This document shows, in pieces, positions 6,220 to 23,418 of a stretch of DNA of 23,418 nucleotides. Origin of the DNA: a virus. Both the position numbers and the translations under genes were made by a program. The notes beneath the pieces were generated by a model. It had not been told where the DNA came from and did no database searches. It saw only the letters and a list, made by a program, of their open reading frames with translations. The stretch spans positions 1-23,418 of the IMG/VR virus record IMGVR_UViG_3300010370_000255; one strand, 5' to 3'. Each line of letters begins with the position of its first letter. Within the stretch, counting starts at the first letter, position 1.

Positions 6220-6494
6220 CTAACGAAGAAGAAATTCAACTTTTCAACCAAGTTGGCGCCGATCTGCACGGCGTGATTTTCAAGAATGCCTACGATGGTG
6301 AGGCATTGGATGAGGAAAAGTTTGAGATCACACTGAAATCATTGATGTTTTTTACAATCAAGATGGTGTATGATCAGCAGATACCGTCAGCGACCATGAT
6401 CGCGTATGTGCGCGGTGTGTATGAGGATTTGAACCGGATCGCCGAGGGGAGGGATGAACGTGCCGAGACCATCGCCACTCTCACCGAACAGTGA
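6216..6494 (+). CDS. Hypothetical acidic protein with TTG start, 92 aa
   Basis: No ATG is well placed, but TTG 6216-6218 overlaps the previous stop (TTGA) and is preceded by GGGAGG at 6-base spacing, an almost ideal site. The product LTNEEEIQLFNQVGADLHGV continues with an acidic helical segment and ends DERAETIATLTEQ. It has the look of a small soluble helical protein, similar in length and style to its upstream neighbour. Function unknown. Confidence 0.6.
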   Translation: MTNEEEIQLFNQVGADLHGVIFKNAYDGEALDEEKFEITLKSLMFFTIKMVYDQQIPSATMIAYVRGVYEDLNRIAEGRDERAETIATLTEQ

Positions 6495-7038
6495 CAAGGT
6501 CGTGATGGCCAGCACATGGGCCAGACGCGAATGGGATCACTACGAAACTGAGGAATGGGTGACGGAGGTGCTATTAAGGCATGAATCCTTCACCAAGGTA
6601 TGGGAACCCGCAGTAGGCAAGGGTCGCATGGCGAAGGTGTTTAAAAAGCACGGCGTTGATGTGTATGGATCAGACATACTGGATTACGGCTTTGGGTATG
6701 AAATTGGCGATTTTCTGCTGATGTGGGGAAACCCTGAGCAGCGGGATATTGTTACAAATCCACCCTTCGCCGAGGACATGGCGGATCAGTTTATTGAGCA
6801 TGCGCTGATGCTGACGCGCCCTTTTGGCGGCAGGGTGGCAATGCTCCTGAGGCATGAGTTTGACTGTGCAAGTAGCCGCAAGAACATATTCGGCAAGCCG
6901 CCATTTGCCTGTAAGATTGTCCTATTACGCAGACCAAGGTGGATAGACGACAGCACCGGATCGCCTCGCCACAATTATGCGTGGTACATATGGGATTGGT
7001 CATGGGGCAAAGAGCCGACGATCATCTATGACAAGTGA
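6454..7038 (+). CDS. SAM-dependent DNA methyltransferase (NPPF type)
   Basis: 194 residues from ATG 6454; GTG 6460 (six bases after GGGAGG) and ATG 6505 (after AAGG) are alternative starts, and none affects the catalytic core. Motif I is WEPAVGKGRM (50-59), the SAM-binding loop; GSD (72-74) marks the acidic end of strand 2; and TNPPF (101-105) is the motif IV signature of amino-methyltransferases that act on adenine N6 or cytosine N4. No target-recognition domain or restriction partner is visible, so it looks like an orphan phage methyltransferase that protects DNA or acts in modification. It is not of the cytosine-C5 type. A conserved-looking tail (PRHNYAWYIWDW) follows. It overlaps genes on both sides. 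Confidence 0.85.
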   Translation: MNVPRPSPLSPNSDKVVMASTWARREWDHYETEEWVTEVLLRHESFTKVWEPAVGKGRMAKVFKKHGVDVYGSDILDYGFGYEIGDFLLMWGNPEQRDIVTNPPFAEDMADQFIEHALMLTRPFGGRVAMLLRHEFDCASSRKNIFGKPPFACKIVLLRRPRWIDDSTGSPRHNYAWYIWDWSWGKEPTIIYDK

Positions 7039-10206: not shown

Positions 10207-10842
10207 ATGCTAGATAAAACAAAATCAGAAATTGTAACCATCTCCGCACCAAAGATCATGACGGCGGAATTTAAACTAATTGGCACGGCGCCATTTGTTC
10301 AGGCTCGCTTTTCGGAGAAAGCCAAGAACCAGATGATGGCAAAGATGGCCGCAGGTAGCACCGCCAAGGGCAAGAAGATCAGAGACGCAAGAGACTTTGA
10401 TCAAGACTGCCAGAACGCATTGCATATCGGCGTTGACGGCAAGAATGGCGTACCCGCCGGATCATTTCGTAATGCCATGATCTCGGCGTGTCGTTTGGTC
10501 GGATACAAGATGACCATTGCCAAGCTGTCGATCTTCGTCGAGGCGGACACGTTTGACCGCGTTGACGGTGTTCCGCTTGTGCATCTCAATGGCACATGGG
10601 AACGCATGGACATGCACACACGCAACGCAACTGGCGTTGTGGATATACGCATCCGTCCGATGTGGCGAGAGTGGAATATCAATCTGCGAGTCAAGTATGA
10701 TGCTGATCAATTCACGTTGTCCGATGTCACCAACTTGCTGATGCGAGCGGGTATGCAAGTCGGCATTGGTGAAGGTCGGCCTGATTCTAAATCATCAAAC
10801 GGCCTTGGCTTTGGCACGTTCAAGATTGAGGAAGCACGATGA
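10207..10842 (+). CDS. Conserved phage protein with RAMP/Cas7-like glycine-rich end, 211 aa
   Basis: The ATG at 10207 follows AAAGGGAAG. The N-terminus has a strand then FKLIGTAPFVQARFSEKAKN (22-41); a middle part has GVPAGSFRNAMISACRLVGY (81-100); and the C-terminus has AGMQVGIGEGRPDSKSSNGL (181-200), then GFGTFKI. A G-x-G...G-x-G-x-G loop between a helix and a final strand, with an opening (T/P)LxxxRFS-like strand, is typical of RAMP ferredoxin-like folds such as Cas7. Closely similar proteins occur, as I recall, in many phages as conserved hypotheticals. The catalytic or RNA-binding role of RAMP proteins is not shown here. The next gene overlaps by 4 bases, indicating a functional pair. 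Confidence 0.7.
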   Translation: MLDKTKSEIVTISAPKIMTAEFKLIGTAPFVQARFSEKAKNQMMAKMAAGSTAKGKKIRDARDFDQDCQNALHIGVDGKNGVPAGSFRNAMISACRLVGYKMTIAKLSIFVEADTFDRVDGVPLVHLNGTWERMDMHTRNATGVVDIRIRPMWREWNINLRVKYDADQFTLSDVTNLLMRAGMQVGIGEGRPDSKSSNGLGFGTFKIEEAR

Positions 10843-11279
10843 TCATTGAAGCCATCAAGGAAGAACTTGAGGCTCTCGTAGTAGACGGCGCACTTGATCC
10901 TGAGCGCGTCGTCGAGGCGGCGAGAAATCCCAATTCAAGCATGCATGGTCAGTTTGATTGGGATGATAGTACGGCGGCACACGAGCATCGCCTGTCACAG
11001 GCTCGTGCGCTGATCAAGCGGGTGAAGGTCAATGTGATACGCACTGACAACGAGATCGTCAGGGTGTCATCATATATTCGCTCGCCATCAGGGTCGGGGT
11101 ATGAATCGACGCAAAAAGTCATGGTCAATCAAGCGGATCGGATCACCGTGATGCTGATTACATTGGCAAGTTGCGCGACCATGCTCCGCAATCTGGCGGC
11201 GCCTGAAGTTGATGGCATCGTCATTGAGATTGAAAACCTGAAAGCGCAACTTCTCTCGGATAGAGAAGCGGCGGCGTAG
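10839..11279 (+). CDS. Conserved phage protein with WDD motif, 146 aa
   Basis: The start overlaps the preceding stop (ATGA), and the gene ends where the G-rich repeat array begins. Residues 19-60 read LDPERVVEAARNPNSSMHGQ, then FDWDDSTAAHEHRLSQARAL. This (L)xPxxVVxAARxPxSxxHxxFxWDDxxAAxxxRLxQAR pattern is, as I recall, a common conserved phage protein of unknown function. The second half is helical (AAPEVDGIVIEIENLKAQLL). The paired acidic residues and histidines could bind metal, but no enzyme class is recognised. It is likely expressed and perhaps complexed with the RAMP-like protein. Confidence 0.72.
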   Translation: MIIEAIKEELEALVVDGALDPERVVEAARNPNSSMHGQFDWDDSTAAHEHRLSQARALIKRVKVNVIRTDNEIVRVSSYIRSPSGSGYESTQKVMVNQADRITVMLITLASCATMLRNLAAPEVDGIVIEIENLKAQLLSDREAAA

Positions 11280-11280
11280 C

Positions 11281-12140
11281 AGGCAAGACAGCGAGTGGCA
11301 CGGCTCCGATTGGTCGGGAACGGCGTGTCGGGGCGATGCAAGGCAGGCCGCGCAAGGTCTGGCACGGCAACGCACGGTTGGGCAAGGTAAGCATGGCAGG
11401 CTTGGAAGAGCATGGTGCGGCGAGTTGTGGTTTGGCACGGTTGAGCAAGGCAGGCAAGACATGGCGAGGTGTTACAAGGCTCGTCGCTGCGTGGTCGGGT
11501 TCGGCTCGGCAAGGCAGGCGAGACAGTGTCAGGTAAGGTAAGACGCGGTGAGGCATGGCAGGCACGGCACGACAGCGTCGGGCGGTTCTCGGTCAGGCAA
11601 GATTGGCAAGGCAGGCAAGGCGCGTCAGTGTCCGGTTCGGAGCCGTACGGCAGGGATTGGCATGGTGCGGTACAGCAAGGCAGGCAAGGACAGGTGTTGT
11701 GTGGCAGGGCGAGGAACAGCGCGACAAGGAGCGGCTGGGCAAGGCGTAGCAATGCAGGCAAGGCGAGGCGCGTACTGGTCTGACGAGTCGCGGCGAGTCG
11801 TGGCAAGGCAGGCAAGGCACGACAGCACGAGGCTAGTTTGGGCGAGGTCCGGTAAGGCAGGCTAGGTGAGGAACCGTATGGTTTGGCGTGGCGAGGTTCC
11901 GAATGGCAAAGCAGGCATGGCTCGGTGACGCAAGGATTTGCGAGGCCGGGTGGGGCGATGCAGGCAAGGACAGGCATAGCGTGGCAGGGCGAGGAGCGGC
12001 TTGGTAAGGCAGGTCTCGCAAGGCGCGTTATGGCGGGGTCTGGCGTGGACGGGTCCGGCGTGGCATGGCAGGCACGGAAGCGCGGGGTCGGGCTGTGCAA
12101 GGCAAGGCATGACAAGGCAGAGCAGGCAGACAAAGGTGAA
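11281..12140. repeat. Degenerate G-rich pentanucleotide repeat array (about 860 bases)
   Basis: This stretch contains no credible gene. The + strand is built of GG-anchored five-base units such as GGCAA, GGCAG, GGCAC, GGCAT and GGCGA, with slips in phase. AAGGCAGGC occurs exactly seven times (from 11340, 11447, 11511, 11608, 11677, 11805 and 11854) at uneven spacing. A 41-base block at 11680-11720 recurs with a few changes at 11960-12000, and GGCATGGCAGGCACGG occurs at 11552 and 12062. Open frames on both strands show the same five-residue rhythm, as expected from a pentamer, and are artefacts. Function is unknown: a packaging, recombination or replication site, or an RNA element, are all possible. 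Confidence 0.85.
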
Positions 12141-12161
12141 GGGGATTGATATGGTTAACGC

Positions 12162-12386
12162 ATGTCAGGATTCGCGAGCAAACGTATCATGAGCCTTCAC
12201 CGACACTGCGATCCAGTGACGATGGATCACATCATAGAATTGCGTAAACAGTTGAGGGAAACTGAGCGCCAACGCGACAACGCCGTTGATCGGTGTGTGG
12301 CACTTGATAAGTTGGTGTGGGACTTGCGAGACAAATTGTTACAACGCCCTAATGGGGAAACCAATGACGAAGAGCGGAACTGCTAA
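12162..12386 (+). CDS. Hypothetical coiled-coil protein, 74 aa
   Basis: The first gene after the repeat array. ATG 12162 and ATG 12189 are both possible starts, and neither has a convincing ribosome site; GAAGGGG lies somewhat far upstream. The product includes MDHIIELRKQLRETERQRDN and VALDKLVWDLRDKLLQRPNG, a charged helix likely to form a coiled coil, and an acidic end. Family not recognised. It overlaps the next gene by 23 bases, linking it to the glycosyltransferase operon. Confidence 0.5.
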   Translation: MSGFASKRIMSLHRHCDPVTMDHIIELRKQLRETERQRDNAVDRCVALDKLVWDLRDKLLQRPNGETNDEERNC

Positions 12387-12627
12387 CAAACTATTTGAAG
12401 AACTTGAACAAGCCGATGTCTTTGAAGAATGGAAAGACATGCCGGAGTTTGTACAAGAAAAACAAGAACCTTATCAGCAAATCATCGTGCGTTTCCGATG
12501 CAAGGAAGACGTAGAAGAATTTGCTCAACTTATTGGTCAACAAATAACACCTAAGACCAAAAGCATATGGCATCCGCGTCTTGCGCGTGGCGTCAATGCA
12601 AATAAGGTGTGGGTCGATGAACCCTGA
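12364..12627 (+). CDS. Small companion protein of phage DNA-modification loci, 87 aa
   Basis: ATG 12364 is behind GGGGAAACC. The product has a helical N-terminus, then EEWKDMPEFVQEKQEPYQQI (21-40), IIVRFRCKEDVEEFAQLIGQ and TPKTKSIWHP (62-71). This MPEFxQE...(V/I)xFxxxEDVxxFAxLIxQ...TKSIWxP pattern is one I associate with small phage genes found beside base-modification genes, with some likeness to a ParB/Srx-type fold. Its biochemical role is unknown to me. The next gene, a glycosyltransferase, starts inside it (11-base overlap), which supports a joint role. The pattern is seen; the role is inferred from that recalled association. Confidence 0.68.
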   Translation: MTKSGTANKLFEELEQADVFEEWKDMPEFVQEKQEPYQQIIVRFRCKEDVEEFAQLIGQQITPKTKSIWHPRLARGVNANKVWVDEP

Positions 12628-13486
12628 TCATCCCGTCTACATTGTGTCCAAAGGACGGTGGCACACACGGCTGACGGCAAAGGCGCTAGCCAAGATGGGT
12701 GTTGACTTCAGGATCATCGTTGAAGGCCATGAATACGAGCAATATGCAAGCGTTATAGATGCGCGGCAAATATTGGTTTTGCCTGAAGAGTATCTCAATG
12801 CTTATGACACTTGCGATGACTTAGGCCGGACTAAAAGCGTTGGACCGGGTGCGGCTCGCAATTATGCATGGGATCACGCTATATCTATTGGCGCGAAGAG
12901 CCATTGGGTTATGGACGATAACCTTGACGCCTTTCACCGCATGAACCGCAACATCAAGGCTGAGTGCGAGACAGGAACTATCTTTTGGATAGCGGAACAG
13001 TTTGTTGACCGATACGAGAACGTCGCAATCTCCGGCTTCAATTATTACTCTTTTTGCAAAGCCACCGATCCTGTTCCTCCTTTTAGCCTGAATACACGCA
13101 TTTATTCATGTCTTTTGATTAGGAACGATATTCCATACAGGTGGCGAGCCAGATACAATGAGGACACTGATTTGTGCTTAAGGGTTCTCAAGGACGGATA
13201 CTGCACAATCCAGTTCAATGCTTTCCTTCAGGGGAAAGTCACAACACAAAGAATGACAGGCGGCAATACCAAGGAATTTTACAAAGAAGAGGGAACCAAG
13301 GCTAAGTCTGAAATGTTAGCCAATCTCCATCCTGATGTTGCTGAAGTAGTATGGAAGTTCAACCGTTGGCATCACCACGTTGATTATCGGCGGTTTAAAA
13401 TAAACAAACTGATTAGGAAACAAGGTCTTGTCATTCCTGATCGCATCAACGAATACGGCATGAAACTGATAGAGAAAACCCAATGA
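12617..13486 (+). CDS. TET-associated-type glycosyltransferase (DNA hypermodification)
   Basis: 289 residues from ATG 12617, preceded by AAGGTGTGGG; an earlier ATG (12581) is less likely. The N-terminus VYIVSKGRWHTRLTAKALAK with FRIIVEGHEY is typical of the TAGT family. SHWVMDDNLDAF (95-106) carries the DxD-like metal and sugar-nucleotide site of GT-A enzymes; NEDTDLCLRVL (181-191) supplies further acidic residues; and RMTGGNT (212-218) is a late family motif. These enzymes are predicted, and some reported, to add sugars to hydroxymethylated pyrimidines in phage DNA. No TET/JBP oxygenase, C5-methyltransferase or hydroxymethylase is in this window, so the base-activating step must lie elsewhere or differ. 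Confidence 0.82.
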   Translation: MNPDHPVYIVSKGRWHTRLTAKALAKMGVDFRIIVEGHEYEQYASVIDARQILVLPEEYLNAYDTCDDLGRTKSVGPGAARNYAWDHAISIGAKSHWVMDDNLDAFHRMNRNIKAECETGTIFWIAEQFVDRYENVAISGFNYYSFCKATDPVPPFSLNTRIYSCLLIRNDIPYRWRARYNEDTDLCLRVLKDGYCTIQFNAFLQGKVTTQRMTGGNTKEFYKEEGTKAKSEMLANLHPDVAEVVWKFNRWHHHVDYRRFKINKLIRKQGLVIPDRINEYGMKLIEKTQ

Positions 13487-14547: not shown

Positions 14548-16842
14548 ATGCCACTAACACCAGGATTAACTCCATCAGTGCGTCTTGAGGACGAACAAAC
14601 TGCCGCCCCGATTGAGGGGATGGATATACAAGTTGAAATGGTGGAAGACGGCGCCGACCGACCTGACGTTGACATAGACGGTAATATTCTCCGCATTGAG
14701 CATCCTGATGGCACAATCAGCGTGTCACTAGACGGCAGACCGATTGAGGAAAATGGACGCAAGAAACAAGAAGGTTGGTTTGCCAATCTGGCTGAAGAAA
14801 TTGACGAACACGAACGTAGCCGGATTGCTGACGACTTGCTTCGTGGCATCCAGAATGACCTGACAAGCCGCGAAGAATGGATACAGGAACGCGCTCAGGG
14901 TCTTAAACTCCTCGGTCTTAAGGTCGAATTGCCCGGCCTTCAGGGTACGCCTGACGGTGCGCCCGTCGAAGGCATGAGCAAAGTTCGTCATCCGCTTCTG
15001 TTGGAGGCTGTGCTTCGGTTTCAGGCCAATGCTCGGTCTGAATTGCTACCGACAGACGGCCCCGTAAAGGTTCGTGATGACGCGACAGAAGGCTCGCCTG
15101 ACCGTGATCAGTTGGCCGACGCTCTTGAAACAGACATGAATTACTATCTGACCGTGACGGATAAGGCTTACTATCCTGATACGGACAAAATGCTGTTCAT
15201 GCTCGGCTTTGGCGGCACAGCATTCAAGAAAATCTATTTTTGCCCTCTTCGTGGCCGTCCTGTATCCGAGTCAATTGACGCTGACGACCTGATTGTAAAC
15301 AATTCAGCCACAAGCCTCACGACAGCCCGTCGCGTAACACACCGCATTTACATGCGCCCATCTGTTGTAAAGCGCATGCAGATCATTGGCGCGTATCGTG
15401 ATGTGATGCTATCGACCGCCAAGGCGCCTGACCTTGATGCCGTGCAAGAAGAAAAGAAGTCACAACAAGGCGTTCAGATGCAGAATGCCAATCCCGAGGA
15501 TAATGATCGGGAAATTTACGAATGCTACTGCGAATTGGACATCAAAGGCTACGAACACGAGTTAAATGGCGAAAAAACTGGCCTTGAAGTGCCGTATCGC
15601 GTCACAATTGACGTATCTAGCCGCCAAATTTTGTCGATTGTCCGCAATTACGACGAAAATTCTGCCGATTTGCCGGAAGCAAAGGTTAATTTTGTCAAAT
15701 ATACCTTCGTACCCGGCCTTGGTTTCTACGATATTGGCCTCCTGAACATCCTTGGTAACACCACAAACGCGGTAACAGCGGCTTGGCGCGAACTTCTTGA
15801 CGCGGGTATGTACGCCAACTTCCCCGGCTTCCTGTATTCCAAGCAGTCTGGCCGTCAGAACAGCAACATCTTCCGTGTTCCGCCGGGTGGTGGGGCGCAG
15901 ATCGACACGGGTGGTGGCCCAATTCAGCAAGCCGTCATGCCGTTGCCGTATAAAGAGCCGTCACAAGCCCTCAATGTGCTGACGCAACAGATTGCCGAGT
16001 ATGGCCAACGCCTTGGCGGCACATCAGAAGTGGCCGTTGGCGAAGGCCGTCAGGATGCTCCGGTCGGCACAACGATGGCTTTGATTGAAAATGCTATCAA
16101 AGTACTCAATTCGGTCCACAAACGCCTTCATGCGGCTCAGGCAGAAGAGTTCCAGTTGCTCGCGCAATGTTTCCGCGACAACCCCAATTCATTCTGGGAC
16201 CACAACAAGAAGCCTTCGACGCCTTGGAACGAGCAAAAGTTTACAGCGGCATTGGAAGACTTCCTTTTGATCCCGCAAGCCGATCCAAATACGTCATCCA
16301 ACACTCAGCGCATCATGAAAGTGGCCGCTTTGATCCAAATGGCATCCACCGATCCGGCTGGCTTTAACCTTCCTGAAGTGCGTAAAGAGGCTTTGACAGC
16401 CATTGGATGGAACAATGCCGAGCGTTTCTTGGCGCCAGCCATGCCGCCTATGCCTAATCCCGTGAATGAGGCGAAAACCTTGGATAGCCAAGCCAAAATG
16501 ATGGTGGCGCAAGCCAAGATGGCCGAGGTTCAGCATAAGATTCAGGGTGGAGAAGGTCCACAAGGGCCAAATCCGATGGAAATGCAACTTGAGGCCGTAA
16601 AAGAACAAAACCGCGCCGCCGAGATTGAGCAAAAGGCGGCTGACGCTGAAATGGATAATTTAAACCGTCAAAGAGATAGGGAGAGCCGCGAACGTCTGGC
16701 GGCAGTCAAGCTGGCAGAGCAAGTCATGAAAGACCCCATGCAAGGTATGGCGGTCGTGCGTGACCTCATCTCGCCAAGTATGCTCCAGCGGTTGGAAGCC
16801 AACGAGGCACCTGCCGCGCAACCCCAAAGGCTGAATGGCTGA
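14548..16842 (+). CDS. Portal protein (P22-like, head-tail connector)
   Basis: 764 residues, in the usual 650-800 range of podovirus portals. It forms the dodecameric ring through which DNA is packed and ejected. A disordered acidic start (1-80) is followed by the core: VRHPLLLEAVLRFQANARSE, GFGGTAFKKIYFCPLRGRPV, RRVTHRIYMRPSVVKRM, then YTFVPGLGFYDIGLLNILGN and TSEVAVGEGRQDAPVGTTMA. These match the P22-like portal pattern, including the tunnel region with its GxGQDxxVGTT-like loop. The C-terminal 120 residues are a glutamine/alanine-rich helix (DSQAKMMVAQAKMAEVQHKI), the barrel-like extension. The start follows GAGGGCG. The next gene overlaps the stop by 8 bases. Confidence 0.93.
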   Translation: MPLTPGLTPSVRLEDEQTAAPIEGMDIQVEMVEDGADRPDVDIDGNILRIEHPDGTISVSLDGRPIEENGRKKQEGWFANLAEEIDEHERSRIADDLLRGIQNDLTSREEWIQERAQGLKLLGLKVELPGLQGTPDGAPVEGMSKVRHPLLLEAVLRFQANARSELLPTDGPVKVRDDATEGSPDRDQLADALETDMNYYLTVTDKAYYPDTDKMLFMLGFGGTAFKKIYFCPLRGRPVSESIDADDLIVNNSATSLTTARRVTHRIYMRPSVVKRMQIIGAYRDVMLSTAKAPDLDAVQEEKKSQQGVQMQNANPEDNDREIYECYCELDIKGYEHELNGEKTGLEVPYRVTIDVSSRQILSIVRNYDENSADLPEAKVNFVKYTFVPGLGFYDIGLLNILGNTTNAVTAAWRELLDAGMYANFPGFLYSKQSGRQNSNIFRVPPGGGAQIDTGGGPIQQAVMPLPYKEPSQALNVLTQQIAEYGQRLGGTSEVAVGEGRQDAPVGTTMALIENAIKVLNSVHKRLHAAQAEEFQLLAQCFRDNPNSFWDHNKKPSTPWNEQKFTAALEDFLLIPQADPNTSSNTQRIMKVAALIQMASTDPAGFNLPEVRKEALTAIGWNNAERFLAPAMPPMPNPVNEAKTLDSQAKMMVAQAKMAEVQHKIQGGEGPQGPNPMEMQLEAVKEQNRAAEIEQKAADAEMDNLNRQRDRESRERLAAVKLAEQVMKDPMQGMAVVRDLISPSMLQRLEANEAPAAQPQRLNG

Positions 16843-16995: not shown

Positions 16996-19900
16996 ATGGC
17001 CGACAATTTGTCTGATGACGCAATCAAACGGGCTGTGCTTGCGGCCCGTAAACCGTCTAATCTTGTTACTGAAGCAGACATAGAACAGCCATCAATAGCA
17101 GAGACACTGTATGACATTGGTGCGGCTATTCCTAGCGCAGTGTCTCGGTATGTTTCATCTGTGCCTGAGCGGTTTTCTGCCGCTACAGAGCGCGTCAAGC
17201 AAATGTCGCCGTCAGAAATAGCAAGCACAATTGGTTCAACGGCTAAAAGCATGATTGTTGATCCGGCAGTGCAAGCGTTTACTGCGCCCGGTCGTGCTTA
17301 TCGTGGCGAAATTTCACAAGAGCAAATGCTTCCAGAAGCATTGAATTTTACGGGAATGACCACGCTCGGCGGCATCCCCGCATCTGCCCTTGAACGCTCT
17401 GGCGGCATGATGCTTGGCACATCCGGTACACGCATGTTGCCTGAAGCGGCGGCTGTTGAATTGGCAAAGCGCCAACTGTCACCTGTCGGTCTTTATAGCC
17501 ACGGTGCTGAAGCCGCTATGGCATTGCCACAGTCCACCGGATCAGTTGATCAGATGATTGCCATGCTCCGAAAACAATCGGGTGTGACAGAAGCAGAATT
17601 AAAAAATGCAGGACTTCTTACTGAAGAAGGTCGCGTTAATCCCGATTGGTTAGCCAAAGGCAAAATTGGCCGTGAAGACATTGCTTCTCATTTGCAATCG
17701 CGTATGCCGCAAGTTGAAGAGACTGTGTTAAAAAACAAATATGATTATCCTTATACGACAGATGATGAATGGAATTCTGCAATTCAAGCCGCAACGGATT
17801 CTGGCAATTATAGTGAAGCAATGAGACTTCGCCGTGCTTGGAATGAATCTGAAGGTCTTGGTAAAAAAGGATCACCAAAATATGCTTCATACACTTTACC
17901 TGATGGTAAAAACTATCGGGAAGTATTATTGCGTGTGCCAGATAAAACAACAACACATTATCTTGCTCAAAACAAATATGGCGCATCCGGTGGTCCATTC
18001 AATACGCAAGAAGAAGCGTTATCCTTTGCTGGAGAGGGTGGTCAAGTTTTGCCTCAAATAAAAAATGAAGGATATAATAAAAAATTATTCAAATCTTCTC
18101 ATTGGGACGAACCAAACATTCTTGCTCACATCCGCATGGCTGACCGCACCGGACCAAACGGTGAAAAAATATTGCACATAGAAGAAGTGCAATCTGATTG
18201 GGGCCAGAAAGGTAAAAAAGAAGGGTTTGCAAACGCAAATGATGAAAAAGAATATTATAACTTTATCAATGATATGCGTGAAAGAGTTAGAAACCAATCT
18301 TTTACTGAAACAGTAAATGCTGGTTTAGACCCTGAAAGAGCAAAAAATTTAATTGATAAAATAATGTCAACAATGAAACCGCATGAATTAGCAACATATC
18401 TTGGCGAAAACGAAAAATTGCATGATATGTTTGCAAAATATACAAAATCAATAAAAGGTTTGCCATCTGCTCCTTATGTCACATCAACATCTGGATGGAC
18501 TGACCTTGCTTTGAAGCGCGTTCTTAAAGAAGCGGCAGAAGGTGGCTATGACAAAGTTGTATGGACGCCAGGCGCAGAGCAAGTCAAGCGGTATGATTTA
18601 AGTAAATCTTTATCTAAAATTGCATACAATCCAGATACTGGATATTTCCAAGCACTTGATTTGAACGGTAACCCAGCAATTAATCAAAAAATTGAAACTT
18701 CAAAACTTCCTGATTTGGTTGGCAAAGAAACTGCTGAGAAACTTTTATCACAGAAACCAAACAATCTTGGGGTTCATCAATTAGAAACATCCGATTTAAC
18801 AATTGGTGGCGAAGGCATGAAGGAATACTATGACAAAATCCTTCCAAAGCGCCTTCAAGAAATAGTAAAACGGCACGATAAAAATGCTAAAATAGGATCT
18901 CATAACGTATGGGATAAGTATGATGTTGTTGATGCAGAGGGTAAGATAATATTTACACATACAAATCCTGAATATGCACAAAATGATGCACATTTTTTGG
19001 GTATCGTTAATGATGTATCTGTAAAAAAATCACCAATGGAAATGTTGGGAATTGATATTACTCCTCAAATGCGTGAAAGCATATTGAAGGGGCAAGGCGC
19101 TTTTATGAAAGGCGGTCGTGTAGGTTTTGCTGAGGGCGGCGATAGTCTTGTTGATCGCAGTAAATTGCCAGGCGCTACAATAAAGCCCTATGAACCCACA
19201 TGGAAAGATCGCATTGCCAATTTACTCCTTGGCGGCGAAATGCCATCTGCTGAACGTGAGCGATTTGTTGAAGGGCTTGTTGGTTCCCGTGGTATGGGTT
19301 CAACAGGCGTAAGCGTTTCAGATTTTGTTCCTTTGGTTGGTCAAGTTTTACCAACGCAAGAAGCCTTAAAACAAGGTGATTACAAAACAGCGGCCATGAC
19401 TTCGTTGCCTATGGGAGGCGCTTTAGGCTCGACAATAAAGAACGCAGAAAACGCAGCGATAAGGAAATTATTATATGAAACAGCACAACACGGACCATTC
19501 TTCAGGGTCACGCCAACAAAAATTCAAGAAGGTGAACGACTTGCTGGAGAGGCTGGACAAGCAATATGGCCCGACACCCCAGCCGACGTACGAAGAATTG
19601 CAGAGTCTAGAGGACACCCTGCATATGGAACTACGAAATATGAATCGGCGACAGGAAAAGAAACGCTCATAATGCCGCCTGAAGAGGAGAACATTCCTCT
19701 TCAAGTTGCCAATCAATACGTTGCAAGTTTAGGCCTTTCTCCCGTTAAACAGACTGAAATGCCAAGGTCGTCTTTGGCAAAACAAGGCGCAATTGGTCGC
19801 GTTTACACAACGGCTGTTGAAGGATCGCCAGAATATAAAACTGCGGTTTTTGACGCTTATAGCCGCATGATGCCTGAAGTAATTGAGCAATCAGGCGCAA

Positions 19901-22900
19901 AAAATTACGACGAACTTCTGGCGGCAGCGTATCGCCAAATGGCCAAAGAAACATCAGATCAATTTGACGCCTTACCTCTTAATTATTCTTTTCACAGGGC
20001 CGGAGAAGGTGACTACGCAAATAGCGGTCAAATGGTCGCCGACGTTCACGGTAATAAACATCTGTTTGTCTATCAAGGTGGAGACAAGCATGATTTCTTG
20101 CACAATGTAGACCCTCAAACAGGTCTCAACGAAAATGAAAAGTTTCGCGCTGTTCACGACGCATTTGGTCATGCTTTATTGGGCAATACATTTGGTCCTC
20201 AAGGGGAAGAACGCGCTTGGGGCGTACACTCGCAAATGTATAGCCCTCTTGCTCGTCTTGCGATGACATCTGAAACGCGCGGACAAAATAGTTGGGTTAA
20301 TTACACGCCTGCAAATGTGGAAGTTTGGGAAAAATTACATCAAATTGATAGCCGTATGGCTGATTTGAGAAGACGCGGTGACCACGCGGCTATGGATGAA
20401 TTAAAGCAAGCAAGAAAAGATATTATGTCTGAGTGGACATATGCTCCAAATAAAGCTGTTCTTATGCCGCCAGAGTTTCTTAGTACCGAATACACTGGTG
20501 AAATGCCAAATTATATTCAATCTTTAATGCGTCCTGATCCGTCAACGACGTTTGCTTCTCCGGCTACGCATTATAGTTTTGACCCAAGTCTTCAGATTAC
20601 TGACCCTGCGCGTTATGGAACAAACAAAAAAGTACTTGGTCAAGAGCGCGGAAGATTAGAAAGCGACATAAAGCCAAGAACATATTTTTATCTTGGTGAA
20701 CCGGGAGCAGTTACACCCGAGCCAAATGTTGGAACGTCTCGCTATCGCGCAGAAATAGGCAATCTGTACAATCAAGCAGAAGACCCTATTAAACTTGCTC
20801 GCATGACAAGAATATTAAACACAAATTCTCCTCTTGGAACATTTAACCCCGGCGTTACTGAAACAGCAACAGCCGCAAATGATTTGGACAGGTTGTTGAA
20901 AATGTATGGCTATTCAGGTCTCGCAGATACATCATCAGGATACCCAACTGCTTATGTATTTAATCCTGTTCCTGTTCAGAGATACGCAGACGGCGGACGC
21001 GCTGAATATGCGTCGAAGGGCGCAGTTAAAGAAGACGATGAAATTAGATCAGCATTAGACATTGCTCGTCAAATAGAAGACCCCGCCAATCGTATTGAAG
21101 CGGACATTCGTGCGTTAACTCAAAACCTTTCAGGATTAGACATAGCATCCGCGTTCCCAGCATTTAGCACGGGTTTGCCACAACGACCTCAAGTTGGCGG
21201 CGCGGGGCTTATTCCATCGCGGCCAGCAAACATTCCAGAACAAATTACTGTTTTGCGTCCGACTGTCGATAATCCGCAGCGCATGGCGTATCCTTTAATT
21301 TATGAAAATCCAAAAACAATTGCTGCAAAGGCAGCCGCAAATGTCGCTCCAGAAGACGAGGCGTTGAAGCGTTTATTTGGAGTTACTCGTGATGATCTTT
21401 ACCAAATGAGCAAAGGTCGCATGGGGACTGCGGTTCCAGATATTAATCTTGGCAAAGGTAAAACACCTGAGCCTGTTGAATCAATTATGAACCAGCGCAA
21501 TGCTCAACGTCTAATTGATACACTAGCAGAAGCCGAAAAGTATCCTCATCTCACAAGAGGTATGGATGCTTGGTATACTTCTGATCCAATGTATCAACGG
21601 CTTGTTCAATTAGTTGGAAAAGAAGCAGCAGATAGAAGATTTTCGCAAATCAACACAAGAACAGGAATGATGTCGCCGGGTTCAGACGTTGATACTGAAA
21701 TTAATCGCGGTTTTGCTGCGGATTATATGATTTCACAGGGACGTTTTCCTGAATTTCAAAAATTTGGCGGCATGAGTTTAGAAGGCAGACCAAAAGACTT
21801 TCCAAAAGAAATTGAAAGGGTTTTAGGTCACCCATATCATTCAACATCTCATGTGGGTCCGCTTTCAAAATACATTCAATCCGGTGAAGTAGATATGACT
21901 TCGCCAAAAGTTCCCTTGTATATACAATCATCAAATGTTCCTGAACTTGGCCAGCAAACACGTTGGCCTGTTCCCGATGCTCATTTCACACGAGCGAGTG
22001 CATTGGCAGACACAAGGACAGCATCTGATTTCAAACCGTCAATGAAAATGTCCGAGTATCGTCCATTTGGTGAGTGGTATTATCAAAATGTTGCCCAGCC
22101 CCTTGGGTTAGAAGGCGTTCCCGCGCAGGGTCGTCAGTGGGGAACATTTGCACATGCAACGGGTGTAAAAACACCAATTGGTGCGCCAAAATTAGAACTT
22201 ATTGCAAAACATATGATGGATGCGGCGCGGTATCACGATATAGAGCCTGAAGTGATGCGTGATCTAATTTTAATGGGCGAAAAATACGAAAGAGGGGGCC
22301 GCACTATGGGCAACAATGCAATAGACAACGCAATCCGTGTTGCTCGGTTATCCGATGACAAGATTGATATGCCGAAATCTTTAAAAGAACTTCAAAATTG
22401 GAAAAAAACGCATCCGTCAAAAGGATCAATGGATAAAGCATTTTCTGCCCGTGCTTTTGGTTTTGAAGGAGCGCCTTCGGTAGCAATGCCTGCTAACATT
22501 GATGAACTATTAGCCTATCTTCGCGGTCAACGCGCTTCTGGCGGCAGAGCGGCGTTTGGATTTGGTGGCGACTCCGATGCCGCTGAAGGTTCATCATATA
22601 CTGAAAACATCAGAAATGATTATACGCCTAGTTTCCGTGAAGCAGAAACACAGTCCATGAACGATTTGGAAAGGGCATATAACACAGGCGAAATATCACG
22701 ACCGACTGAGCGTGATTCAACATATATTGGACAAACCAATCGTGGCTTGCCAGAGGATTACACGCCAGCAGTAGACGTTGGACCGTATAGTTTTGGCAAT
22801 ACTGGTGTTACTTACGATGCCGGAACATCTAATCCTCCGACAAACATCCGTGAATATACGCGCCAACGTCTAGAAACAACGCCTGATGATCTTTATCAGG

Positions 22901-23418
22901 CGGCGTCAAATCCAAGTTTGTATTACGGCATGGGCTATCCTAGCACGGTAGGAATACAACCTACACGAGCGGGTGCCGCTGGATTGCTTGGTACATTATA
23001 TGGCGAAAGCGAGTATGATCCGACCGCAATTAATTCTGAATCTGGCGCCGTTGGTATGGCTCAATATCTTGGTTCAAGAAAAGAAGATTTCTTGAGAGCA
23101 ATGGGTATTGATACTCGGCGTCCTACAGATGCAGAATTGAAAGACAAATTGGCCGACACACAAACCCGTCAGATGGGCTATATCATCAATGAAATGTTGA
23201 AAGAGCCATCGTATGAATTGTCAGAAAAACAATATCTTACGGGAACAAATCCTGAAAAAGTTGCAGGTGTAATAACCAAAAACTTTGAAAGACCTTCAGA
23301 GCAAGAAATTATTGATTCTGCCGCCCGTCGAGCCGCCGAAGCCTTGTCAATTTATTCAGGCGAGCCGCCGACATTGTCTGATACATTCACAGGATCACCT
23401 GCCGCAAATGCAACAGGG
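16996..23418 (+). CDS. Giant multidomain virion/ejected protein with tail-lysozyme domain (3' truncated)
   Basis: Open from ATG 16996 (after GTGGGGA) to the window edge without a stop: at least 2,141 residues. Regions in order: (1) about 156-690, with GLYSHGAEAAMALPQ (165), EEVQSDWGQ (396-404), GWTDLALKRVL (from about 500), WTPGAEQVKRYDL (523-535) and EYYDKILP (610-617). (2) About 730-1170, with FRAVHDAFGH (1050-1059), GEERAWGVH and ETRGQNSW (1093-1100). (3) About 1190-1330, with THYSF (1191) and RTYFYLGE (1228). (4) About 1430-1760, with SPGSDVDTE (1560-1568), DAHFTR (1661) and PIGAPKLE (1727-1734). (5) A phage tail-lysozyme-like domain, GLLGTLYGESEYDP (1996, Glu2004) and SGAVGMAQYLGSRK. These blocks recur in giant polyvalent phage proteins, thought to be ejected into the cell. 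Each block's enzymatic activity, except peptidoglycan cleavage by (5), is unknown. Confidence 0.88.
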   Translation, partial: MADNLSDDAIKRAVLAARKPSNLVTEADIEQPSIAETLYDIGAAIPSAVSRYVSSVPERFSAATERVKQMSPSEIASTIGSTAKSMIVDPAVQAFTAPGRAYRGEISQEQMLPEALNFTGMTTLGGIPASALERSGGMMLGTSGTRMLPEAAAVELAKRQLSPVGLYSHGAEAAMALPQSTGSVDQMIAMLRKQSGVTEAELKNAGLLTEEGRVNPDWLAKGKIGREDIASHLQSRMPQVEETVLKNKYDYPYTTDDEWNSAIQAATDSGNYSEAMRLRRAWNESEGLGKKGSPKYASYTLPDGKNYREVLLRVPDKTTTHYLAQNKYGASGGPFNTQEEALSFAGEGGQVLPQIKNEGYNKKLFKSSHWDEPNILAHIRMADRTGPNGEKILHIEEVQSDWGQKGKKEGFANANDEKEYYNFINDMRERVRNQSFTETVNAGLDPERAKNLIDKIMSTMKPHELATYLGENEKLHDMFAKYTKSIKGLPSAPYVTSTSGWTDLALKRVLKEAAEGGYDKVVWTPGAEQVKRYDLSKSLSKIAYNPDTGYFQALDLNGNPAINQKIETSKLPDLVGKETAEKLLSQKPNNLGVHQLETSDLTIGGEGMKEYYDKILPKRLQEIVKRHDKNAKIGSHNVWDKYDVVDAEGKIIFTHTNPEYAQNDAHFLGIVNDVSVKKSPMEMLGIDITPQMRESILKGQGAFMKGGRVGFAEGGDSLVDRSKLPGATIKPYEPTWKDRIANLLLGGEMPSAERERFVEGLVGSRGMGSTGVSVSDFVPLVGQVLPTQEALKQGDYKTAAMTSLPMGGALGSTIKNAENAAIRKLLYETAQHGPFFRVTPTKIQEGERLAGEAGQAIWPDTPADVRRIAESRGHPAYGTTKYESATGKETLIMPPEEENIPLQVANQYVASLGLSPVKQTEMPRSSLAKQGAIGRVYTTAVEGSPEYKTAVFDAYSRMMPEVIEQSGAKNYDELLAAAYRQMAKETSDQFDALPLNYSFHRAGEGDYANSGQMVADVHGNKHLFVYQGGDKHDFLHNVDPQTGLNENEKFRAVHDAFGHALLGNTFGPQGEERAWGVHSQMYSPLARLAMTSETRGQNSWVNYTPANVEVWEKLHQIDSRMADLRRRGDHAAMDELKQARKDIMSEWTYAPNKAVLMPPEFLSTEYTGEMPNYIQSLMRPDPSTTFASPATHYSFDPSLQITDPARYGTNKKVLGQERGRLESDIKPRTYFYLGEPGAVTPEPNVGTSRYRAEIGNLYNQAEDPIKLARMTRILNTNSPLGTFNPGVTETATAANDLDRLLKMYGYSGLADTSSGYPTAYVFNPVPVQRYADGGRAEYASKGAVKEDDEIRSALDIARQIEDPANRIEADIRALTQNLSGLDIASAFPAFSTGLPQRPQVGGAGLIPSRPANIPEQITVLRPTVDNPQRMAYPLIYENPKTIAAKAAANVAPEDEALKRLFGVTRDDLYQMSKGRMGTAVPDINLGKGKTPEPVESIMNQRNAQRLIDTLAEAEKYPHLTRGMDAWYTSDPMYQRLVQLVGKEAADRRFSQINTRTGMMSPGSDVDTEINRGFAADYMISQGRFPEFQKFGGMSLEGRPKDFPKEIERVLGHPYHSTSHVGPLSKYIQSGEVDMTSPKVPLYIQSSNVPELGQQTRWPVPDAHFTRASALADTRTASDFKPSMKMSEYRPFGEWYYQNVAQPLGLEGVPAQGRQWGTFAHATGVKTPIGAPKLELIAKHMMDAARYHDIEPEVMRDLILMGEKYERGGRTMGNNAIDNAIRVARLSDDKIDMPKSLKELQNWKKTHPSKGSMDKAFSARAFGFEGAPSVAMPANIDELLAYLRGQRASGGRAAFGFGGDSDAAEGSSYTENIRNDYTPSFREAETQSMNDLERAYNTGEISRPTERDSTYIGQTNRGLPEDYTPAVDVGPYSFGNTGVTYDAGTSNPPTNIREYTRQRLETTPDDLYQAASNPSLYYGMGYPSTVGIQPTRAGAAGLLGTLYGESEYDPTAINSESGAVGMAQYLGSRKEDFLRAMGIDTRRPTDAELKDKLADTQTRQMGYIINEMLKEPSYELSEKQYLTGTNPEKVAGVITKNFERPSEQEIIDSAARRAAEALSIYSGEPPTLSDTFTGSPAANATG

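Follow-up and report, generated by a model that had tools for sequence, protein, structure and literature searches.

The window analysed here, the whole 23,418-base stretch of the viral record IMGVR_UViG_3300010370_000255, which is stored as a fragment, ends inside a giant open reading frame (ORF) in which several disparate domains are joined in one chain: a lysozyme domain recognized by Pfam, and modules that resemble DNA glycosylases, ADP-ribosyltransferases (ARTs) and GNAT proteins by fold or profile. Our analysis suggests that the product of this gene is probably a mosaic polyvalent protein that is loaded into the virion, and that its modules are exchanged mostly at repeated GGR joints.

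A giant mosaic frame next to the portal gene

The frame is free of stop codons from GTG 16981 or ATG 16996 through position 23418, the last base of the window. Since the relatives L003 and L005 open with the identical MADNLSDD, the ATG seems the likelier start, and counting from there the frame comprises 2141 codons. This agrees with a first-pass annotation that had proposed a single frame of more than 2,100 codons, unfinished at the window edge; indeed, the relatives on contigs L002 and L004 run on for about 245 residues beyond the point at which the window stops. The giant ORF lies directly 3' of an SU10-type portal gene, and genes for a GroES-like protein and the major head protein are found downstream in relatives, the overall order being portal, cargo gene, GG[RK]-rich protein, GroES-like protein and major head protein. 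The features of the locus are listed below, with residues numbered from the ATG.

14548..16842, plus strand: portal protein (SU10_portal / phrog_1216), immediately upstream of the giant ORF
16996..23418, plus strand: giant mosaic polyvalent ORF, with 2141 codons inside the window (counted from the ATG) and its 3' end outside it
17014..17049, plus strand: N-terminal leader helix tag DDAIKRAVLAAR, residues 7-18, pattern present in three copies in the protein
17548..19110, plus strand: module B, residues 185-705, GNAT-like by fold comparison and containing a long insertion
19111..19143, plus strand: joint 1, KGGRVGFAEGGDS, GGR at residue 706
19273..20535, plus strand: module C1, residues 760-1180, helical core with HDxxGH, GEE and ETRGQNS (phrog_3170)
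20536..20991, plus strand: module C2, residues 1181-1332, ADP-ribosyltransferase-like (Foldseek 6kyf; hhalign with an ART-PolyVal set)
20992..21069, plus strand: joint 2, DGGRAEYASKGAVKEDDEIRSALDIAR, GGR at residue 1333
21223..22293, plus strand: module E, residues 1410-1766, 8-oxoguanine DNA glycosylase-like fold (predicted structure, 133 viral relatives)
22294..22347, plus strand: joint 3, RGGRTMGNNAIDNAIRVAR, GGR at residue 1767
22540..22569, plus strand: joint 4, ASGGRAAFGFGGD, GGR at residue 1849
22963..23355, plus strand: Phage_lysozyme2 domain, residues 1990-2120, putative catalytic Glu2004 (Pfam PF18013)

Close relatives of the giant protein were found on four contigs. The proteins of L003 (1582 residues) and L004 (1455 residues) are complete and that of L002 is complete at its C-terminal end; the length among relatives thus ranges from 1455 to at least 2141 residues, with exchangeable modules. 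In L004, the portal and the giant gene are present together on one contig. The guanine plus cytosine (GC) content is 0.41-0.45 in the region of the giant ORF and about 0.50 upstream, which fits a recent or mosaic acquisition.

The only Pfam domain found in the protein is Phage_lysozyme2 (PF18013; residues 1990-2120, E-value 5e-14, 53.1 bits with a gathering cut-off of 28.2). The lysozyme-like domain with Glu2004 that had been read from the sequence alone is thus confirmed by the profile and by the numbering, as Glu2004 lies in a LYGES motif beginning at residue 2001, and it is kept in L002 and L004. Within the window lineage, all relatives for which the C-terminal end is seen have a wall-cutting domain, and an identical tail of 48 residues ends the proteins of L002, L003, L004, L013 and L090. 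In L003 and L090 this tail is preceded by a different, SLT-like wall-cutting domain. With two lysozyme types ahead of one tail we can conclude that the tail is the constant part, and that the window stops before it. We predict about 250 further residues beyond the window edge, the last of them forming a tail similar to LPTVDGxTAEQWA...GDMSKVHGRIKYVNGAPRLEYY, followed by a GG[RK]-rich gene and then a GroES-like gene.

Module folds and their distribution

The four uncharacterised modules of the first-pass annotation resolve into three large modules (B, C and E), which are conserved far beyond chance; C divides into two sub-domains, and N-terminal and linker regions make up the remainder. Confirmed viral loci number 104 for C, 133 for E and at least 575 for B, and in the relatives the modules occur as separate genes or in different combinations: C, E and B are three ORFs in L093, C and E are two ORFs in L029, and L071 has C with B. 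Structure prediction by segment, which had been suggested earlier, gave a glycosylase-like fold for E, a GNAT-like fold for B, an ART-like fold for C2 and a helical core for C1.

The model of module E is of high confidence over residues 1414 to 1766 approximately, most blocks having a predicted local distance difference test (pLDDT) score above 90. The closest solved structures are those of 8-oxoguanine DNA glycosylases, namely 3knt (Z 11.8, root mean square deviation 3.1 over 181 residues), 3n0u (Z 11.6) and 3fhg (Z 11.1), and further rows include DUF2419 queuine salvage enzymes, OGG1 and AGOG, and the phage DNA-modifying enzyme PUGT (Z 5.0). The glycosylase rows (3knt, 3n0u, 3fhg, OGG1 and AGOG) score far above unrelated rows; the fold is helical, and the best Z of 11.8 is below the caution level of the tool (Z 13). 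Because a plain Foldseek search with the whole 805-residue model returned PUGT (E-value 5.5) as the sole such match among the top 50, it is the realignment that supports the assignment of E to the HhH-GPD fold. Across 37 E sequences, three residues (Lys1638, Asp1661 and His1663) do not vary, and Lys1638 and Asp1661 are a candidate catalytic pair. E resembles the 8-oxoguanine DNA glycosylases (Ogg2/AGOG, HhH-GPD superfamily) and phage PUGT (8z2n) in its fold and, putatively, in an invariant Lys and Asp 23 residues apart, but differs from the glycosylases in having no match at the sequence level and in being fused into a phage cargo protein. Pfam gave no known family for E, and Ogg-HhH was not found in the window. 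Uncharacterised viral proteins in BFVD share the E fold; no relatives were confirmed in cellular genomes, and a search of cultured phages with one E-containing relative gave no match.

Upstream of the portal gene, positions 12581-13486 on the plus strand encode a TET-associated glycosyltransferase (PF20691, E-value 4.5e-46), a gene not found in the 15 other records searched. It suggests glycosylated, hypermodified DNA in the window phage, and could be of relevance to module E with its DNA-glycosylase-like fold. A search for Tet_JBP adjoining the glycosyltransferase gave no match, yet the control search was equally silent.

For module B, GNAT proteins fill most of the top 50 rows of the fold comparison, with Z scores of 6.0-8.0 over about 90-120 residues. 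An hhalign comparison of the B profile with the single GNAT sequence that the loci provided was negative. We therefore regard B as GNAT-like only tentatively.

In the helical core C1, invariant His, Asp and Glu residues point to a candidate metal site. The HDxxGH motif together with a weak Foldseek row for tryptophan hydroxylase prompted the idea of an aromatic-amino-acid hydroxylase. This idea was dropped: PDB sequences searched with a profile yielded no such enzyme, Pfam gave nothing, and human phenylalanine hydroxylase, in a sequence that PDB entries match at full length, reached only 0.8% in hhalign. The C1 core (phrog_3170) also occurs as a gene of its own, in 187 records of Mycobacterium phages, and L010 4758-6074 corresponds to gp99 of Mycobacterium phage Alice, which lies near head fibre and head decoration genes. 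Alice gp99 thus provides a cultured system for the study of this domain.

C2 matches 6KYF, identified as AcrIF11 (PMC13131331), with a Foldseek probability of 0.98 but an E-value of 0.08, and a set of ART-PolyVal-like sequences with an hhalign probability of 97% (E-value 8e-11, 74 columns). His1192 and Tyr1232 are invariant. The third active-site position of the H-Y-[DE] signature, the residue between the two glycines of a GYxG motif, is an acid in the ART-PolyVal relatives and Ser1307 in the window protein. C2 therefore has in common with AcrIF11 and ART-PolyVal a remote similarity of fold and profile and the H-x-S and Tyr positions, but the identity is about 9%, the acid is replaced, and the domain is embedded in a giant chain.

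GGR joints, terminal tags and the adjoining GG[RK]-rich gene

The four joints of the window protein carry the sequence GGR, and it is at such joints that most of the mapped exchanges between relatives occur. L090 lacks both C and E and joins B at joint 1 directly to joint 3, L013 lacks E and joins C at joint 2 directly to joint 3, and a module of 223 residues between GGRs is common to L003 and L004. The breakpoints mapped in the window protein lie 2-25 residues from a GGR, as compared to a mean of 205 residues for random positions. The four GGRs themselves are mildly unusual, with 0.9 expected and as many reached in 36 of 3000 shuffles. Both the joints and their order recur at 50-60% identity in the independent contigs L002, L003, L004 and L013. 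In L002, a 75-residue linker is duplicated (codons 575-650 and 828-903, with 204 of 225 bases identical); the duplication is internal and recent, and lies at a GGR joint.

The GGR is often followed by a helix, e.g. DDxIxxALxxAR, and the same motif forms the termini of single-module cargo proteins, as in the tag-like ends PTPVQPFKQGGLAAIKRSR and RTEKKKGGAVKKSALDSVKRGYKHA. The helix, described by the pattern [DN][DN]..I..A[LIV]..A[RK], is present at the N-terminus of the window protein and after its joints 2 and 3, i. e. in three copies as compared to a mean of 0.004 in shuffles for this pattern chosen post hoc. The +GG tag is more frequent near module ends than expected (17 seen and 4.2 expected for B, 12 and 1.5 for C, 17 and 2.6 for E), and none of 2000 simulations equalled these counts. 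Among loci left out when the tag motif was chosen, a C-terminal +GG was present in 56 of 131 cargo proteins as compared to 84 of 561 others, and GG plus helix within the last 60 residues in 7 of 131 as compared to none of 561; a helix directly after module ends was not enriched in this set. Outside the window lineage, the helix tag is confined to the C-terminus of the protein.

A GG[RK]-rich protein is encoded 3' of the cargo gene in L002, L003, L004 and L013, and another one occupies this slot in MW202675. Such ORFs were located at L003 4865-6511, L004 6364-7803, L013 3571-6111 and L006 11927-13075; the protein is often proline-rich, has a common ending such as GxGRLEKIxxYG, and is conserved together with the cargo genes. 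Over all loci, 24 of 127 cargo genes have a GG[RK]-rich gene as their immediate 3' neighbour, as compared to 4 of 577 genes elsewhere (p 2e-15, a value that overstates independence because the counted sequences are akin). Moreover, the helix tag was found in 14 of the 27 cargo proteins with the partner and in 4 of the 135 without. These counts are evidence of a linkage, not of a mechanism.

It is tempting to speculate that the GGR and amphipathic-helix motif is a general, short tag on the ends of virion-delivered proteins which is recognized by the adjoining GG[RK]-rich protein, and that fusion and homologous exchange at the tag build up and reshuffle giant ejected polyproteins with new effectors including a DNA-glycosylase-like enzyme; taken as a whole, we regard this proposal as possible but rather doubtful. 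If it is true, tag and partner would be a sequence handle for injected effectors across thousands of uncultured viruses, and the loading mechanism would be testable. An experimental route is offered by the cultured roseophage CRP-207, in which a long gene located one small ORF past the portal has internal AEGG repeats and a GGLASKKKRKKKK end, a GG...K tag similar to those described above.

A probable virion-loaded polyvalent protein and alternative readings

The giant polyvalent ejected protein of the first-pass annotation holds in so far as the gene is adjacent to the portal, capsid genes are near, and the corresponding slot of MW202675 contains polyvalent domains; ejection is what we infer from this setting. 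The window protein shares with the polyvalent proteins (Iyer et al. 2017, PMC5512222) its very large multidomain architecture, the location near virion genes and the combination of enzyme-like and lysozyme domains. In MW202675, the slot consists of three ORFs, one with GNAT, M15 and ART-PolyVal (1e-17), one with B and C1, and one with InPase (2e-47), and ART-PolyVal, InPase and GNAT are all found in the polyvalent proteins. The window lineage differs in that it has, in addition, GG tags at its joints, a constant tail and a GG[RK]-rich partner, and none of the catalogued polyvalent Pfam domains (ART-PolyVal, InPase, LPDs and others) scored over the cut-off in the window protein. Shuffling at GGR joints, terminal tags, the partner, the constant tail and the module folds go beyond the earlier annotation. 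As far as our tools and the open literature show, three features are new: the DNA-glycosylase-like module (for which the text of PMC5512222 has 0 occurrences), the tag at joints and termini, and the GG[RK]-rich partner linked to the cargo.

We suggest that the protein would be packaged, possibly via the tail and/or via GG tags docking on the partner or on the portal. At infection, the lysozyme would open the peptidoglycan locally, and the acetyltransferase-like, ADP-ribosyltransferase-like and DNA-glycosylase-like modules may pass into the cell together with the DNA and act on targets of the host or of defence systems. By fusing and exchanging modules at the repeated tag, the phage could alter its injected effector set. 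These effector types are plausible because ART and acetyltransferase activities are known among enzymatic anti-CRISPR proteins (PMC13131331), and virion-delivered enzymes resembling DNA glycosylases, ARTs and GNATs would be plausible anti-defence tools acting before phage gene expression. The tag and its partner gene may also show how such viruses load and reshuffle injected proteins, a choice that is little understood in phages other than T4.

Several observations weigh against this interpretation. The exchange points at L003 843 and L004 460 are distant from any GGR, the tag is present in only some of the cargo families, and, in addition to the kinship of the counted sequences, some motifs were picked after the data had been viewed. 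B as a GNAT and E as a glycosylase are supported by fold alone, and because the acidic GYxG position is Ser1307, the activity of C2 is doubtful and the domain may be inactive. Finally, no literature on virion proteomics was found for the group of the window phage, and we infer rather than observe the presence in virions, the packaging and ejection, the enzymatic activities and the role of the tags.

The same joints could also be read as cleavage sites of a polyprotein, which a phage or host protease would cut into individual effectors either while the head matures or once the protein has entered the cell. The joints do match the ends of proteins with a single module, the modules are also found as separate genes, and the processing of polyvalent proteins by built-in metallopeptidases has been proposed (PMC5512222). 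We nevertheless consider cleavage unlikely: Pfam detected no peptidase domain along the window protein, the M15 domain of L006 is in a separate ORF, no protease is linked to the joint motif, and the tag is retained at the C-terminus of single-module proteins, where cleavage would be needless.

Large size, a lysozyme domain and a late-gene neighbourhood would also suit an internal virion protein in the manner of T7 gp16, i. e. a structural, wall-piercing channel of the ejectosome in which the other modules are structural as well. This analogy, which had been drawn from the sequence, turned out to be weak. Both are large late phage proteins with a peptidoglycan hydrolase, but gp16 has an N-terminal lytic transglycosylase domain and a gp14-gp15-gp16 neighbourhood, whereas the lysozyme of the window protein is C-terminal and of another family, and its gene adjoins the portal rather than gp14 and gp15 homologues. 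In MW202675, which has the same order of portal, cargo, GG protein and GroES, a separate 'internal virion protein D' is annotated elsewhere. The window protein is not a homologue of T7 gp16, and with modules that are optional between relatives and include enzyme-like folds, a gp16-style structural role is improbable.

Still less probable is a purely structural role at the tail tip or as a kind of tape measure, in which the protein would not be injected at all, the lysozyme would act outside and the modules would serve as scaffolding. The best PHROG match over the lysozyme, phrog_9570, is indeed annotated as tape measure protein, but it covers the lysozyme domain only, the gene is adjacent to the portal, and the wide length range with swappable modules is unlike a ruler protein. 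A chimeric contig fusing unrelated genes, to which the lower GC content of the ORF region might point, is the least credible explanation and is largely refuted by the independent relatives, as L002, L003, L004 and L013 repeat the joints and their order and the contig of L004 includes the portal gene as well as the giant gene. Thus, loading of a mosaic polyvalent protein into the virion is the reading that we prefer.

Two further features lie elsewhere in the window. An ORF of 334 residues on the minus strand (11129-12133) has a repetitive Pro/Cys/Ala-rich, SCLALP-like translation. The region that it covers is rich in G and has no clear gene on either strand, and at positions 10800-12400 no tandem repeats were scored by Tandem Repeats Finder. 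The translation of 6454-7038 on the plus strand, for which NCBIfam and Pfam gave no match, resembles, by eye only, a small DNA methyltransferase with a TNPPF motif.

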